Of a DNA stretch of 64,000 nucleotides, positions 2,884-59,731 are shown piece after piece. A program made the translations under genes and the position numbers. The stretch is taken from positions 97,670-161,669 of the forward strand of contig JAJPJJ010000126.1 in NCBI GenBank assembly GCA_021324295.1, in the 5' to 3' direction. This DNA is from Bacillota bacterium (GTDB lineage Bacteria > Sysuimicrobiota > Sysuimicrobiia > Sysuimicrobiales > Segetimicrobiaceae). Every line of letters starts with the position of its first letter. The stretch's first letter is position 1. A model generated the notes under the pieces. That model was not told the DNA's origin and did no database searches. It saw only the letters and a list, made by a program, of their open reading frames with translations.

Positions 2884-3872
2884 GCCTGTGTCCCCGTCCC
2901 CGGCGCTCTCCCGCGCGCCGGGATGTCCGCGCCGTCCGCGGCCGCCGGCGGCTCTTCGTGCGTCACAAGCTTGAGGAACACATCCTCCAGGCTCATCGCG
3001 ACCGGCCGCAGCTCGAGCAGGCCGCAGCCGGCCTCGACGACCACGCGCGCGACCTGCTCCCGGACATCCTGCCCGAGCGCCGCCTCGACGACGAGCGCCC
3101 CGTCGCCTGCGGGCGTGACGTGGAGCACGCCGGGGATCCGGCCGAGGCGTCCCGCGAGCTCCCCCGCCGCGCGGGCGATGCGCACCAGCGTCTTCTCGGA
3201 GTTCCGCAGGCGCGCGGCGAGCTGTTCGTAGGTATCGACGGCGACGATCGTGCCGTCGTTGATGATGATGACGCGGTCGCACACCGCCGTGGCCTCCGGC
3301 AGGATATGCGTGCTGAGGATGACGGTGTGGCCGCCGCGCAGGCCCTTGATCACGTTGCGGATCTCCACGATCTGCCTCGGATCCATCGCGGAGGTGGGCT
3401 CGTCGAGGATCAACACCGGCGGGTCGTGGACGATCGCGTGCGCCAGGCCGACGCGCTGGCGGTAGCCCTTGGAGAGGTTGCGGACGAGCCGGTCCGCGAC
3501 GTCGGTCACCCCGCACAGGGTCATCGCCCGGTCCACCGCGTCGGGGATCCGCCGCCGTTCGACCTGCTTCAGGCGCGCGACGAAGGCGAGGTACTCGCGG
3601 GTCGTGAAGTCATCGTAGAGCGGCGCGACCTCGGGCAGGTAGCCGAGATGCCGCTTGGCATCGAGCGGCCGCTCCACGACATCGTAGCCGGCGACGGTCG
3701 CCCGGCCGGAGGTGGGGGCGAGGAACCCTGTGAGGATCCTCATCGTGGTTGTCTTGCCGGCCCCGTTGGGGCCCAGGAACCCGAGGATCTCCCCCTCCCG
3801 GGCTTGGAACGAGACGTCGCGAATGGCCCAGCGCTCTCCGTAGCTGCGGGAGAGCGAGTCGGCCTGGATCAC
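2880..3872 (-). CDS. ABC transporter ATP-binding protein (GldA-like)
   Basis: Walker A GPNGAGKTT, signature LSKGYRQRVGLA, Walker B VLILDEP. Confidence 0.95.
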   Translation of the reverse strand: MIQADSLSRSYGERWAIRDVSFQAREGEILGFLGPNGAGKTTTMRILTGFLAPTSGRATVAGYDVVERPLDAKRHLGYLPEVAPLYDDFTTREYLAFVARLKQVERRRIPDAVDRAMTLCGVTDVADRLVRNLSKGYRQRVGLAHAIVHDPPVLILDEPTSAMDPRQIVEIRNVIKGLRGGHTVILSTHILPEATAVCDRVIIINDGTIVAVDTYEQLAARLRNSEKTLVRIARAAGELAGRLGRIPGVLHVTPAGDGALVVEAALGQDVREQVARVVVEAGCGLLELRPVAMSLEDVFLKLVTHEEPPAAADGADIPARGRAPGTGTQA

Positions 3873-4035
3873 ACGTGACCACTCCCTTCCACGCGGACAG
3901 CCTCTATCCTAATCACTGGCTCGGAGGGGCGCAAGACCGTACCCCGCCGCGGCCGCTCCCGGATTCCGGCGCGATCCTGAAGGGAGTTCCCGCGCAGCCC
4001 GCGAACTGCTTGCGCGACACATCGGACAGCATACG

Positions 4036-5670
4036 ATGCGCCGCAGCCACGCCGGGTCACTCCTGATCGCCGCCGCTCTCGTCCTCTCCGGCCTCGGCCC
4101 CGCCGCCGCCCGCGCCGACGCCGGCAGCGCCGCCTGCTCCCACCGGAAGGCCTCGGGCACGCCCCCCCGGCTGGCCCTGTGGATGGAGCCGGGGGCCAAC
4201 CTCGTGGCCCTCAGCACGCGGGAGGGCGTCCGCAGCGCGCTCGACCGCGCGCGCGCCGCCGGCGTCGATACGGTGATGCCGGAGGCGAAGAACGCGTGGG
4301 GGTTCGTCACATACCCGAGCGCGTTCGCGCCGACGATCGACACCTCGCCGATCCCGCACAGCGCGCCGCCGGCGTACCCGCCGCCATCGCAGTGGTATCC
4401 GCGCGATTACGACATGCTCGGCACGATCGTCGCGGAAGCCCACGCCCGGGGCCTCTGCGTGGATGCCGCCGTGAACACGTTCGGCGAGGGATTCACCCCG
4501 CTCCGCGCCGGCCCCGCGTTCACCCACCCCGAGTGGCAGGCGACGGCGTACCTGGCGACACGCCGCGTGCTGGCCCCTTCCGGAGACTCCTACGCGCTCG
4601 CCGGCGTGGATGTTCCACGCGAGGAGGACGCGCTGGTCCTCTACACCCCGGCGAGCGGGACGGAGGCGCCGACCTCACGGTGGGGCGTCGACGTCGCGGT
4701 CTCGGGCGGCACCGTCGTCGACGTCCGAGACCGCGCCGGGGCCGCCGCCGATCCAGGCCCGGCCGCGATCCCGCGCGGCGGGTACGTCCTGTCAGGCAAC
4801 GGCCAGGCGGGCGCCTGGCTGCTGCGGGCGCTGCCGGCGGGCGCGAGGGTGACGATCGGCCCGGTCGAGACGCGCATGGCGCCATCCTCAGCCCACAGCA
4901 TCTTCGCGTTCGCCAGCCCGGCGGATCCCCGCGTGTGGAACTACGAGCTCGGCGTCGTGTACGAGATCCTCGCGCGTTACGACGTCGACGGGATCATCCT
5001 GGACCGGACACGCTACCAGGACCTCAGCGAGGACTTCTCAGACCTGAGCCGGGCCGCGTTCGAGCGGTTCATCGGCCATCCCGTGGCGCACTGGCCGGAC
5101 GATATCTACACCTATGTCCCCCGGGGGTACTGGGTCGCCCGGCGTCCCGGCCCGCTGTACCGCCAGTGGCTGGGCTACCGGGCACACACGATCATGTCCT
5201 ACACCCGGGCCGTCACGCATCTGGTACGCGCGCTCCGGCCGCGCGTCGCCGTGGCGATGTACGTCGGGGCGTGGTACCCGGTGTACTACGAGGAAGGCTC
5301 CAACTGGGCGAGCCCCGACGTCCACCCGCCGTACGACTGGATCGGGGAGCGGTGGGTGCGCGCCGGCCAGGCGCCGCTGCTTGACTACCTGATGATCGGC
5401 CTGTACTACCGGCCGGTGACGATCTGGGAGGCGATCCGCGGCCACCACCATGCCGAGATCAGCGTCCAGGGCGGGGCCGCACTGGGCCTCTCCCTCGTGC
5501 ACGGGGATACGCCGCTCGTGGGAGCCCTCCTCGTCTCCCTCTACGACGGCGCTCCTGCCAGGCTGACTCGCGCGATCCGCGTGTCGAGCGGCCTCACGCG
5601 CGGCACGATGCTGTTCGACCTGATCTACCTCGACAGCGACCATCTCTGGGGGGCGATCCCGAAGCCGTAG
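4036..5670 (+). CDS. Secreted family-10-like glycosyl hydrolase / putative alpha-amylase-fold protein
   Basis: 544-aa ORF with signal peptide; (beta/alpha)8-like segments (VDGIILDRTRYQDLSEDFSDLSRAAFERF). Confidence 0.65.
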   Translation: MRRSHAGSLLIAAALVLSGLGPAAARADAGSAACSHRKASGTPPRLALWMEPGANLVALSTREGVRSALDRARAAGVDTVMPEAKNAWGFVTYPSAFAPTIDTSPIPHSAPPAYPPPSQWYPRDYDMLGTIVAEAHARGLCVDAAVNTFGEGFTPLRAGPAFTHPEWQATAYLATRRVLAPSGDSYALAGVDVPREEDALVLYTPASGTEAPTSRWGVDVAVSGGTVVDVRDRAGAAADPGPAAIPRGGYVLSGNGQAGAWLLRALPAGARVTIGPVETRMAPSSAHSIFAFASPADPRVWNYELGVVYEILARYDVDGIILDRTRYQDLSEDFSDLSRAAFERFIGHPVAHWPDDIYTYVPRGYWVARRPGPLYRQWLGYRAHTIMSYTRAVTHLVRALRPRVAVAMYVGAWYPVYYEEGSNWASPDVHPPYDWIGERWVRAGQAPLLDYLMIGLYYRPVTIWEAIRGHHHAEISVQGGAALGLSLVHGDTPLVGALLVSLYDGAPARLTRAIRVSSGLTRGTMLFDLIYLDSDHLWGAIPKP

Positions 5671-5740: not shown

Positions 5741-6168
5741 TCCCTTCCCTTGTCCTCTATGCCTTCTGTGCGGCGGCTCCCTCGGGACCTGCGAGCGCAA
5801 AGGAAGCCGTACTCGGGATCTCCCGCCGCACCGTCGTCAACCAGCTGGGCCGCAGCCCGATGGCAGACCGGTGCGCGACTGCTACCCGGCTATCACCTCG
5901 GAGCGCGGATACTGGTGGCAGGTCGGACGGTACAGCGCAGAGCGTCTACCATTATAGGCCATCCGCATCACCTCCTTCCGTACTGGCCCCATCATCCCTC
6001 CGGCACCTGCGCGTGTCAAGAGCGTAGTGCGCCGCACGCGACGCTCGTCCGCGGACGGCGCCAGCATCCACCGCAAAAACCTGCGCATCGCCGCCAGCCC
6101 GGCGGCCTTGGGGCAGACATCCGGCGCGAGACGAGCGCGGGGCCGGCTGCCCGGCCCCGCGTGCTCAC

Positions 6169-6594
6169 CTATCGTTTCCCGTTTCGCCGGCCGTTCGTCT
6201 TGCGCTTGGAGCGGCTCCGCAGCCAGGCCGCGATCTCCTCGCGGGTCATCCCCCCGCGCGCCACGGCCGTGATGAACTCCAACACCTCCGGCGGCGGGCT
6301 CAGCACGAGGCGGTAACCCGCGCCCTCGAGGAACAACCGCGTGGCCTCGAGCGCCGTCCGCTTGTTGCCGTCGTGGAAGACCTGATCCCGGACGAGACGA
6401 TCGAGGTAGAACGCGGCCATATCCCAGACGGTCGGCTGCGGGCGCAGGGCGATTCTCGTCTGGACGTAGTTGACCAGCGACTCCAGGCTCGGTGGATAGA
6501 CGACGTTCTGCTCACCGGCCAGGTAGAGCCCTCCGGTGGCGCGGATCATCCGCTGGTTCACAGTCTTGAGCTGGTCCGCGGTCAGGTACTTCAT
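6169..6594 (-). CDS. Fic/Doc-family (death-on-curing) protein, putative toxin
   Basis: MKYLTADQLKTVNQRMI...VRDQVFHDGNKRTALEATRLFLEGAGYRL; Doc-type Fic core DGNKRTA. Confidence 0.88.
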   Translation of the reverse strand: MKYLTADQLKTVNQRMIRATGGLYLAGEQNVVYPPSLESLVNYVQTRIALRPQPTVWDMAAFYLDRLVRDQVFHDGNKRTALEATRLFLEGAGYRLVLSPPPEVLEFITAVARGGMTREEIAAWLRSRSKRKTNGRRNGKR

Positions 6595-6863
6595 CGTCGG
6601 GCCAGCGCCTCCCAGAGCGCGCGGTGATCCCGCAGGCTGCGCTCGAGGCTACCGAGGAACAGCCGTTCGCCGAGGGGCTCCGGCGCGGGCAGAGGACGGG
6701 TCGGCTTCCGCGCTCCCGTTGAGCGGGACCGCACGACCCTCACGCGGCCACGCGCGCGAGGCGATCTCCTGGGCCGTGGGGCGGATTTGGCCCCGGCGAC
6801 CTTCGAACCGGCCATCGTCGCCCTGGTCCGCCGAAGACTCGTGCTCGTGGACCTCCGCGCCAT
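6591..6863 (-). CDS. Hypothetical small basic protein, putative antitoxin partner
   Basis: ORF overlaps the Doc start by 4 nt, typical TA operon layout; N-terminus uncertain (an internal ATG is possible). Confidence 0.45.
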   Translation of the reverse strand: MARRSTSTSLRRTRATMAGSKVAGAKSAPRPRRSPRARGRVRVVRSRSTGARKPTRPLPAPEPLGERLFLGSLERSLRDHRALWEALARR

Positions 6864-7124
6864 CTGTCCGTCGCTCCTCGATTTAATCTAGCATGCATAT
6901 CAAGGGAGGCGCAACACTCCCGAAGCACGGGTCGCGCGCCTGATTTGAGCCGACGACCGTGGGATGCGCGTGCAAGGTCGGAAAGACGTCATTAATGAGT
7001 GAGTATTCATTCGGTGAAGCTCGCTCTCCCGCACTACAGGGGAGTCGGCACAATGAATGGCGCCGGGCCGATCGGCCCGGCGCCCTCGAAACCGGCTATG
7101 GGCTACAGGTATGAGTCGTTCGTC

Positions 7125-7328
7125 CTACCCTACTACCCTCACGTTCTGAGCCTGCGGACCCTTCTGTCCCTGGGTGATCTCGAACTCGACGATTTGCCCT
7201 TCCTCGAGGTTGCGGAATCCCTCGCCGGCGATGCCGGTATAATGAACAAACACGTCCTTGCCTTCCTCCGGGGTAATGAATCCGTAGCCCTTCTCCCGGT
7301 TGAACCACTTCACCGTACCCTTCGGCAT
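7125..7328 (-). CDS. Cold-shock protein (CspA family)
   Basis: [33 protein letters not shown]...; RNP1 KGYGFI and RNP2 VFVHY; GGAGG upstream of ATG. Confidence 0.97.
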
Positions 7329-33825: not shown

Positions 33826-33912
33826 GGCCGATAAAGGCAAACCTGCGGCAACGCAGGGGCGCAAAGCCACGTGACCCTCTGCAGGAGCAGAGGGCCGGAC
33901 GGGCTGCCGAAG
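33826..33912 (+). ncRNA. c-di-GMP-I (GEMM-I) riboswitch aptamer
   Basis: ccgataaaGGCAAACCtgcgGCAAcgcaggGGCGCAAAGCCACG...ccctctgcaggagcagaggg...cGGGCTGCCGAA matches the GEMM-I core with GNRA loop. Confidence 0.92.
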
Positions 33913-54869: not shown

Positions 54870-55235
54870 TCAGAAGCTCAGGACTCGGTCCGCTCCCATC
54901 GTGAGCCGGACGAGGTCGGCCGGGCTGATGAACTCCCACGTGAACCCCTCCAGGTGCTGGGCCGAGACCCCCCGGGCCTCCGCGCAGCCCTTTCAACCGT
55001 AGAAGCGGACGCGCTTCTGCGCGCAGCCGGCGAGCAGGTCCGCGAGCGCGGGCAGCCCCACGCCGCGGACCCCTCCGGCGATCTCCTTCTTCAGGAGATC
55101 GGCCGCGTCACCGGCGAGCGCGATGCCGCACTCCTGCTCAACGGCGGCCGCCCCGTTCACGGCGATGTGGAACGGGATGCTCGCCCGCGTGGGGTCCCGG
55201 GGTCCGGTGCTCGTGACGATCAGCAACGTGGCCAT
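54870..55235 (-). CDS. DsrE-like protein, candidate selenoprotein (in-frame TGA at 54993-54995)
   Basis: MATLLIVTSTGPRDPTRASIPFHIAVNGAAAVEQECGIALAGDAADLLKKEIAGGVRGVGLPALADLLAGCAQKRVRFYG-[TGA]-KGCAEARGVSAQHLEGFTWEFISPADLVRLTMGADRVLSF*; frame stays open for 40 codons after TGA. Confidence 0.7.
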
Positions 55236-55509
55236 GTCCATCCCCTCCGCTCCCTTGACGCAGGTCGTCTCCCCCCGTCGTTCGCCGTGCACCGCTCCCC
55301 CTCCCGCCGCATCACGTGGCGGCGCGGCGGCCGCGGGGCCTCCTTGCCCGACGAATCCCGGCGGGACCGCCGCCCGCGCCACGAAGGACGGCAGGCAGAG
55401 AGGCGGGCGCCCAGGGCCATCATCCTGAAGCCTCTTCAGGCTCCCGACGGCGCCCCGCACATGCCGGGCGCCCCGTGGGTGCGGCCGGGGCGGTCGAACG
55501 CACCCGCCG

Positions 55510-57077: not shown

Positions 57078-59423
57078 TCAGGATGCGACGCCGCGGCCGG
57101 CACCCACCGTCCGCTCGGACGGATCGTCCAGGGCTACCCTGAGGCGCGGAGGCGCATCCACCCACGCCGCGATCATCGCGAGCCAGCGGTGCACCTCGCC
57201 GGGGTCGCGCGCCCGGTAGCGGGCCGCCGTGGGCGACATATCCAAGCCCACCCGAACGGTGACCGCCGCCCCCGCCAGCGCGCGAAACGCGTCCTCGTCC
57301 GTCTGATCGTCCCCGATGTACACGACCGCGGCGCGCGATCGCCACGCGTCCCCGAGGCGCCGCGCCAGCAGCCAGCGCACCGCGTCGCCCTTGTCCCACC
57401 CCACGTTCGGGCGGAGCTCCAGGACGTCTCTGCCCGTGCACACCCGCACCGCCGTGCCGGCCACGGCGTCGCGGACCGCGTCCCGCACCAGCGGCACGTC
57501 GCCGGCGGGCACCCGGCGAAGGTGCACGCTGGCCGTCAGGCCCTTGTTCTCGATCCACACCCCGGGGACGCCGCGCACGCTGTGCTCCAGACGGCTGCAG
57601 CACGCCGCGATCAGCCGGGCGGCGGGCGCGGCGTCCGGGAGCGTCCAGGTCCAGCCCGGCCCGGCCATTTCCAGCCCATGGTTGCCGGCGTAGAACAGGC
57701 CCGGAATCGCCAGCCGCGCGCGGATGTCCCGGAGCGATCGCCCGGTGACGACCGCGAGCATCACGCGCGGGTTCCGTGCGAGGCGAGACAGCACCTCCTC
57801 CACGGGCGCCGGGACGCACACGCGGTCCGGATCGTCACCGAGCGGGGCCAGCGTGCCGTCGAAGTCGAGCAGGAGCGCGAGCGTCCGGCCCCCTTCGAGG
57901 ACCGCCGCGCGCACCTCCTCCGAGGCGCCGGCGAGGGGCAACGCCGCCCGGCGCCCGTCCAGGATGGCCGCGGCGCAGTCCAGATGCCGGGACACCCACC
58001 GGTAGACATCGTGCTCCGCGACGTGCGCGCGCAGGGCGTGCATCCGCCGGCGACGCGCCTCCGGGGACATCTCGAGCGCGCGTCGCAGCCGCTCGGCGCA
58101 CCCCTCGATATCGTAGGGGTTCATGGGCACAGCCCCGGCGAGCTCCTCGCAGGCGCCCGCCAGCTCGCTCAGCAGCAGCACGCCGCGGCCATCCACCTGG
58201 CAGGCGACGAACTCCTTGGCCACCAGGTTCATGCCGTCCCGCAGCGAGCTCACCATGCACACATCCGCGATCCGGTACAGGGCCGCGAGGGCCGCCCGCG
58301 GGAGCGGTTTGGCGAGGTAGAGCACGGGCGTCCAGTCCGCGGTCCGATATGCAGCGTTGATGCGCGCGATCCGGGCCTCGACGTCCTGCTGCAGCTGCCG
58401 GTATGCCTCGACCCGCGTCCGGCTCGGCGCGGCCTTCTGGATGAACACGACCCGTCCGCGATACGCCGGCCACCGGTCCAGGAAGGCCTCGATGGCGCGG
58501 AGGCGGTGGAGGATCCCCTTCGTGTAGTCCACGCGGTCGACGCTCAGCACCACGGCGCGGCCGGCGAGCCGGAAGTGGCGGGTGAGCCGCTCCACCCACC
58601 GCCGGCAGTCGGAGGAGCGCGCCTGCGCGCTCAGCGCCGCGGCGTCGATGCTGATCGGCAGCGCGCGCACCTCGATCCGGCGCCCCGCGTGCTCGACGTG
58701 GTCCCCCGCGCCGGCGCGCGCCCCCAGCGCGCGCGCCGCGGCGTCCCGGAACTGCTCGGCGTCCCGCGCGCACTGGAAGACGACGAGATCGTTGGCCAGG
58801 AGCCCCTCGAGGAGCTCCTCGCGCTGGGGGCAGATCCGGAACACCTCCCAGGCGGGCCACGGGATGTGCCAGAAGTGCATCAGGAACAGATCCTCCCGCA
58901 TCTGGCGCAGCGCCCGCGGGCACAGCGCGAGGTGGTAGTCGTGCATCCACACGATCGCCCCGGGCGCGGCCTCCTGGCACACCCCGTCCGCGAACCGCCG
59001 GTTGGCGGCCTCGTAGGCGGCCCAGTCCGAGGCGGAGAAGCGAACGTGGTCGAGAGCCATGTGGCACAACGGCCACAGCGCTTGGTTGGCGTACCCGCAG
59101 TAGTATCCTTCGACCTCGCGGCCGGGAAGCGCGATCCGCCGCAGCGTGTACCGCGGTGCGTCCGGAGGCACCCCGATCCGGCCGGACGCGTCGGTGACGA
59201 GGAAGTCCGCCTCCCCGCTGCCCCACGCGATCCAGGTGCCTCCGGTCACCCGCATCACGGCGTCGAGGGCGGCGGCGAGACCCCCGGCGCCCGAGGACGC
59301 GGCGGGCCCCCGCGCGGTCATCCGGTGCTCGTACGGCTCGCGATTGCTGACCACGATCAACTGCCGGCCCGCGAGCTGCTCCCGCATCCGCTCGATCACG
59401 CGGTCCGTCCCGTGCATCGGCAT
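57078..59423 (-). CDS. Bifunctional trehalose-6-phosphate synthase / trehalose-6-phosphate phosphatase (OtsA-OtsB fusion)
   Basis: Ots[53 protein letters not shown]; Ots[32 protein letters not shown]. Confidence 0.96.
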
Positions 59424-59521
59424 GGGTCCCCCTCCAGAAGGTACGATGTCCTCTCCGGCCGGGCCGGCGGTGCGCCCAGCCATCGCCGTCGGCGGGATCG
59501 GGCGGTGGATCCGCTGCGCAG

Positions 59522-59555
59522 AAAACGACACGGCCCGGAGACGACCTCCGGGCCG
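59522..59555 (-). terminator. Intrinsic terminator of the c-di-AMP riboswitch expression platform
   Basis: Minus strand: CGGCCCGGAG-gtcgt-CTCCGGGCCG-tgtcgTTTTC. Confidence 0.88.
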
Positions 59556-59571
59556 CGACCCTGGGTGCCGT

Positions 59572-59700
59572 CTCTCACCGCCGACGGGGTTAGCTGACGG
59601 GCTCGGGTCGAGAGACTACCCTACTCGCGCACACACGCGCGAGATACGCCCCACGTTCTGGGTCCCCCGCTCCCTGCGGTTCGCAGGGATTAGGCGTACA
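59572..59700 (-). ncRNA. c-di-AMP riboswitch (ydaO/yuaA motif)
   Basis: Minus strand: ACGCCTAATCCCTGCG...GCGGGGGACCCAgaacgTGGGGCGTATCTC...GTAGGGTAGTCTCTCGACCCGAGCCCGTCAGCTAACCCCGTCGGCG, near-consensus core. Confidence 0.96.
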
Positions 59701-59731
59701 TCCGCGCTCTGGCTCTTGAACGTCCGAGGTG

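Follow-up and report, generated by a model that had tools for sequence, protein, structure and literature searches.

A candidate DsrE-like selenoprotein gene with a conserved in-frame UGA in an uncultured high-GC bacterial lineage

Results

The window analyzed here, i.e., the whole stretch of 64,000 nucleotides, carries on its minus strand a DsrE-like gene whose start codon and frame are intact (Table 1). As the preliminary description of this DNA had stated, the frame meets a TGA and continues for 40 codons to a terminal TGA. The full readthrough product is a single-domain protein of 121 residues (MATLLIV...VLSF), with the in-frame TGA as codon 81, and the protein around it reads VRFYG-TGA-KGCAEARGV, the FYG-U-K-G-C context announced beforehand. 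The Pfam DsrE domain PF02635 spans the TGA (E = 3e-11; 44 bits against a curated cut-off of 22.7; residues 4 to 121 of 122 with the TGA translated as a residue), and the U-x-x-C motif of published DsrE-like selenoproteins is found within this domain as UKGC, residues 81 to 84. No NCBIfam model matched the protein. In a blind scan of the window, which covered all 237 pairs of frames joined by an in-frame TGA, this TGA ranked first for coding-like composition on its two sides, measured as third-position G+C over that of positions 1 and 2. Elsewhere in the window, we observed a c-di-AMP riboswitch (ydaO/yuaA, 83.2 bits, 59565 to 59706, minus strand), upstream of a minus-strand gene (57078 to 59531) for a fused trehalose-6-phosphate synthase/phosphatase, and a c-di-GMP-I-GGC riboswitch aptamer (33827 to 33912, plus strand, 60.6 bits against a gathering score of 59).

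Table 1. Features of the DsrE-like locus (window positions)
Feature	Position	Strand	Basis or remark
DsrE-like selenoprotein gene (candidate)	54870..55235	-	PF02635 match; six TGA-bearing relatives
In-frame UGA, probably read as Sec81 of the UKGC motif	54993..54995	-	Same-codon TGA in six relatives; Cys in Nocardioides/Haladaptatus homologues
Cys84 codon TGC, second residue of U-x-x-C	54984..54986	-	Invariant in seven TGA-bearing sequences
bSECIS-like hairpin GAGGCCC-GGG-GGGUCUC	54964..54980	-	7 bp; GGG loop 54971-54973, 19 nt past UGA
GGAGG ribosome-binding-like motif	55244..55248	-	Sequence; 8 nt upstream of ATG 55235
Terminal TGA of the DsrE-like gene	54870-54872	-

The alignment of homologues, proposed earlier as a check on the TGA, gave a clear answer. 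Within the same family, four genomes (G023, G029, G030, and G031; 71 to 74% identity) have their TGA exactly at codon 81, as do two diverged homologues (G027, 38%; G024, 35%). All seven TGA-bearing sequences agree at position 81, at Cys84, and throughout A87-R88-G89-V90. In Nocardioides sp. JS614 (CGAC; WP_011751596.1) and Haladaptatus halobius (CEPC; WP_227380051.1), a C-x-x-C motif lies exactly at the place of U-x-x-C, with its first Cys opposite Sec81, although these homologues differ in having Cys in place of Sec and share only 29 to 31% identity. The DsrE-like gene thus has what identifies a bacterial selenoprotein, a UGA that is conserved or aligned with Cys. The Nocardioides gene adjoins a gene for a TusA-family sulfurtransferase, a neighborhood that hints at a sulfur relay. 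At position 81, Ser is found in Deinococcus deserti, Microvirga lotononidis, and a distant copy in the genome G004. These proteins carry Ser-x-x-Ser (SGGS, SGMS) instead of U-x-x-C (M. lotononidis plasmid, L055, 1501 to 1863, plus strand; D. deserti plasmid, L054, 601 to 963, plus strand; G004 likewise) and, judging from their motifs, could form a non-thiol branch of the family. Besides that of the window, the same bacterial family has two DsrE-like genes with the in-frame TGA at 35 to 38% identity to it (L028, 1501 to 1860, plus strand; L029, 1474 to 1830, minus strand), so the diverged DsrE types with a UGA number at least three in this family.

The predicted fold places residue 81 at the active site. 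The AlphaFold model (pLDDT 88.7) has a strand at residues 77 to 81 followed by a helix at 82 to 87, with residue 81 at the strand end, where the DsrE fold has its active-site residue, behind the strand of the second half, and its top PDB matches are DsrE proteins. The nearest solved structures, YchN (1jx7), the SSO protein 3mc3, and Swol_2425 (3pnx), all belong to the DsrE family and have the fold in common with the model (TM-score of 0.76 to 0.81, normalized to the query), but none is recorded as a Sec protein. A Cys stands opposite Sec81 in 3pnx, which is named a putative DsrE sulfurtransferase, and the second Cys of the motif is absent from the aligned stretch. Position 81 is the catalytic position of the DsrE family. 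A PDB sequence match to 8pjx was discarded as spurious, being weak and confined to repeats.

The genome, a 4.02-Mb draft (96% complete, 4.7% contamination), holds the tRNA-Sec, selA, selB, and selD that the preliminary description had singled out for verification. Contig C106 carries tRNA-Sec (72.6 bits; called tRNA-SeC with anticodon tca by ARAGORN), a full-length selB (357 bits), and a selA in two frames, while an intact selA lies on contig C42. The selD gene on contig C90 (393 bits) has one in-frame TGA of its own in a CAG-U context, which we take to be the usual SelD active site; it is followed by a hairpin of the same build as that of the DsrE-like gene (GGACCUG-GCG-CAGGUCC), with its loop 27 nt downstream. 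Across the phylum, selA scored above the cut-off in 34 of the 43 genomes examined, and among 14 controls in Escherichia coli only. Five of the six TGA-bearing relatives have it; none was found in G031, which is 68% complete.

A frameshift near residue 293, within the conserved stretch that follows DKLLGGP, splits the C106 selA (L017, G000:C106:124414-125774); this is probably an assembly error, although the gene may truly have been lost and replaced in its function by the C42 copy. The latter belongs to a second, diverged selA-selB pair (L016, G000:C42:36000-43546, minus strand; selA at 5749 to 7131, selB-like at 3207 to 5393), whose SelB is 38% identical to that of C106 and which has, by eye, a MazF/PemK-like open reading frame between its two genes; the 7.5 kb of this locus yielded no tRNA gene. 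G029 likewise has two selA-selB pairs, and the SelB of its C11 pair is 68.6% identical to that of the C106 pair. These second pairs may stem from contamination, as the genomes are drafts. The window genome thus has two diverged selA-selB pairs against a single tRNA-Sec with anticodon UCA. That one pair serves a private set of SECIS elements including the DsrE hairpin, giving two parallel SelB/SECIS specificities per cell, is a speculative and quite unlikely scenario.

Under the published rule for bSECIS elements, the loop has 3 to 9 nt, the stem 4 to 16 bp, the distance from the UGA is 16 to 37 nt, and the minimum free energy (MFE) is at most -7.5, with a G in the first two loop positions and G followed by G or U allowed (PMC13188914). 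The hairpin just past codon 81 has these properties (loop GGG, 7 bp, 19 nt, -18.8 kcal/mol for 39 nt). As cautioned beforehand for GC-rich DNA, a hairpin of this type arises easily, since, when the peptide is recoded synonymously with the codon usage of the window, 53% of the resulting sequences also conform to a bSECIS-type rule and 17% reach the MFE of the hairpin. Hairpin energy was therefore rejected as stand-alone proof, synonymous resampling showing that its presence is not beyond chance. The conservation of the hairpin is more informative. Its codons 86 to 91 are synonymously invariant in 5 of 6 cases versus 13 of 65 elsewhere (P = 0.0033, in a codon-window test whose center was set on the hairpin once this was known), and no other stretch of 18 nt in the gene varies so little, the sole change being GGG to GUG in the loop. 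In the diverged homologues, A-U has become U-A and G-C has become C-G with the stem maintained and 98% of cells paired; these two compensatory pairs yield a covariation score matched in 0 of 500 shuffles, a score with few independent evolutionary events behind it. Synonymous constraint and covariation go beyond the mere presence of a hairpin, and the bSECIS fit suggested at the outset is borne out to this extent. From the longer hairpin first drawn, the upper stem exists and is conserved, with the loop at the distance given above, whereas the lower stem GGGCUG/CGGCCC, which the window sequence can form as an alternative fold, is not conserved in the relatives. A search of the window with Rfam (gathering threshold) and ARAGORN returned no SECIS family and no tRNA.

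A selenium-free readthrough of the UGA, either by near-cognate insertion of Trp or Cys or with truncated and extended forms both in use, is very unlikely, as the TGA aligns with the Cys of the family, a full Sec system is present in the genome together with a selD bearing its own in-frame TGA, and the silent sites of the hairpin are conserved. Moreover, the truncated form of 80 residues would miss Cys84 and the final third of the domain, and UGA is not globally reassigned, because the gene itself terminates with UGA, both in the window genome and in five of six relatives.

The alternative of a decaying pseudogene, in which the TGA is an ordinary nonsense mutation, draws on a neighborhood called decay-rich in the preliminary description and on a surrounding gene order that is not conserved among relatives; a conserved operon was looked for around the orthologues and none was seen, the neighbors differing in L024 to L027. 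Yet the start and reading frame are intact, the same TGA is present in six relatives, some at a synonymous divergence near 1, and the downstream part, with its invariant Cys84 and ARGV, is under purifying selection. Pairwise among the five close sequences, pN/pS was 0.12 to 0.41 after the TGA versus 0.16 to 0.37 before it (Nei-Gojobori counts, synonymous divergence mostly 0.7 to 2), so purifying selection acts on the 40 codons past the TGA to a degree comparable with that on the codons before, settling another check proposed earlier. The TGA common to the relatives and the downstream constraint refute the pseudogene reading, to which we leave a minimal probability, and a dead tail is ruled out, as is a sequencing error, by the conserved codon-81 TGA and the constrained downstream pN/pS. 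A sequencing or assembly error, conceivable in a draft genome with at least one frameshifted gene (the C106 selA), is refuted because independent assemblies, six others, carry the TGA at the same codon, and its probability is practically nil.

Discussion

Altogether, the Sec machinery, the Sec/Cys pair, the shared TGA, the selection downstream, and the constraint on the hairpin support the candidate selenoprotein proposed in the preliminary description, and we consider, from these comparisons of sequences, that the in-frame UGA of the DsrE-like gene is very probably decoded as selenocysteine (probability of about 0.92).

We propose the following model. When the ribosome meets the UGA at codon 81, SelB would deliver Sec-tRNA-Sec (anticodon UCA) under the guidance of the hairpin that lies immediately downstream, resulting in the insertion of selenocysteine. 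At the terminal UGA, which has no such hairpin context, translation would stop, and UGA would thus have two meanings in one message. Sec81, at the end of the beta-strand and at the active-site position of the DsrE fold, would pair with Cys84 as U-x-x-C and, by analogy with the family, would most likely be the nucleophile in thiol/selenol redox chemistry or in a persulfide-type sulfur transfer. A redox or sulfur-transfer role of the Sec81-x-x-Cys84 pair is, on this analogy, somewhat favored.

DsrE-like selenoproteins with U-x-x-C were described in the Sargasso Sea set in 2005 (PMC1088965), in Desulfovibrio vulgaris (PMC1794560), as "DsrE 1" and "DsrE 2" in the GOS set in 2008 (PMC2398784), and, with WP_014524487.1, in a 2026 review (PMC13188914). 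PF02635, U-x-x-C, and a UGA with a bSECIS-type hairpin are common to these proteins and to the window gene, a likeness drawn from their descriptions. As such proteins have been catalogued since 2005, the window gene would therefore be a further member of an established kind; it differs in its host, an uncultured high-GC lineage.

Standard gene calling would cut the product to 80 residues, with loss of the redox motif. With the present gene, the range of DsrE-like selenoproteins would come to include an uncultured, high-GC lineage where selA is close to universal. In the literature on DsrE selenoproteins, we found no function established for any of them. This compact protein, whose Cys counterpart is encoded beside TusA, may offer a route to testing the function of DsrE selenoproteins.
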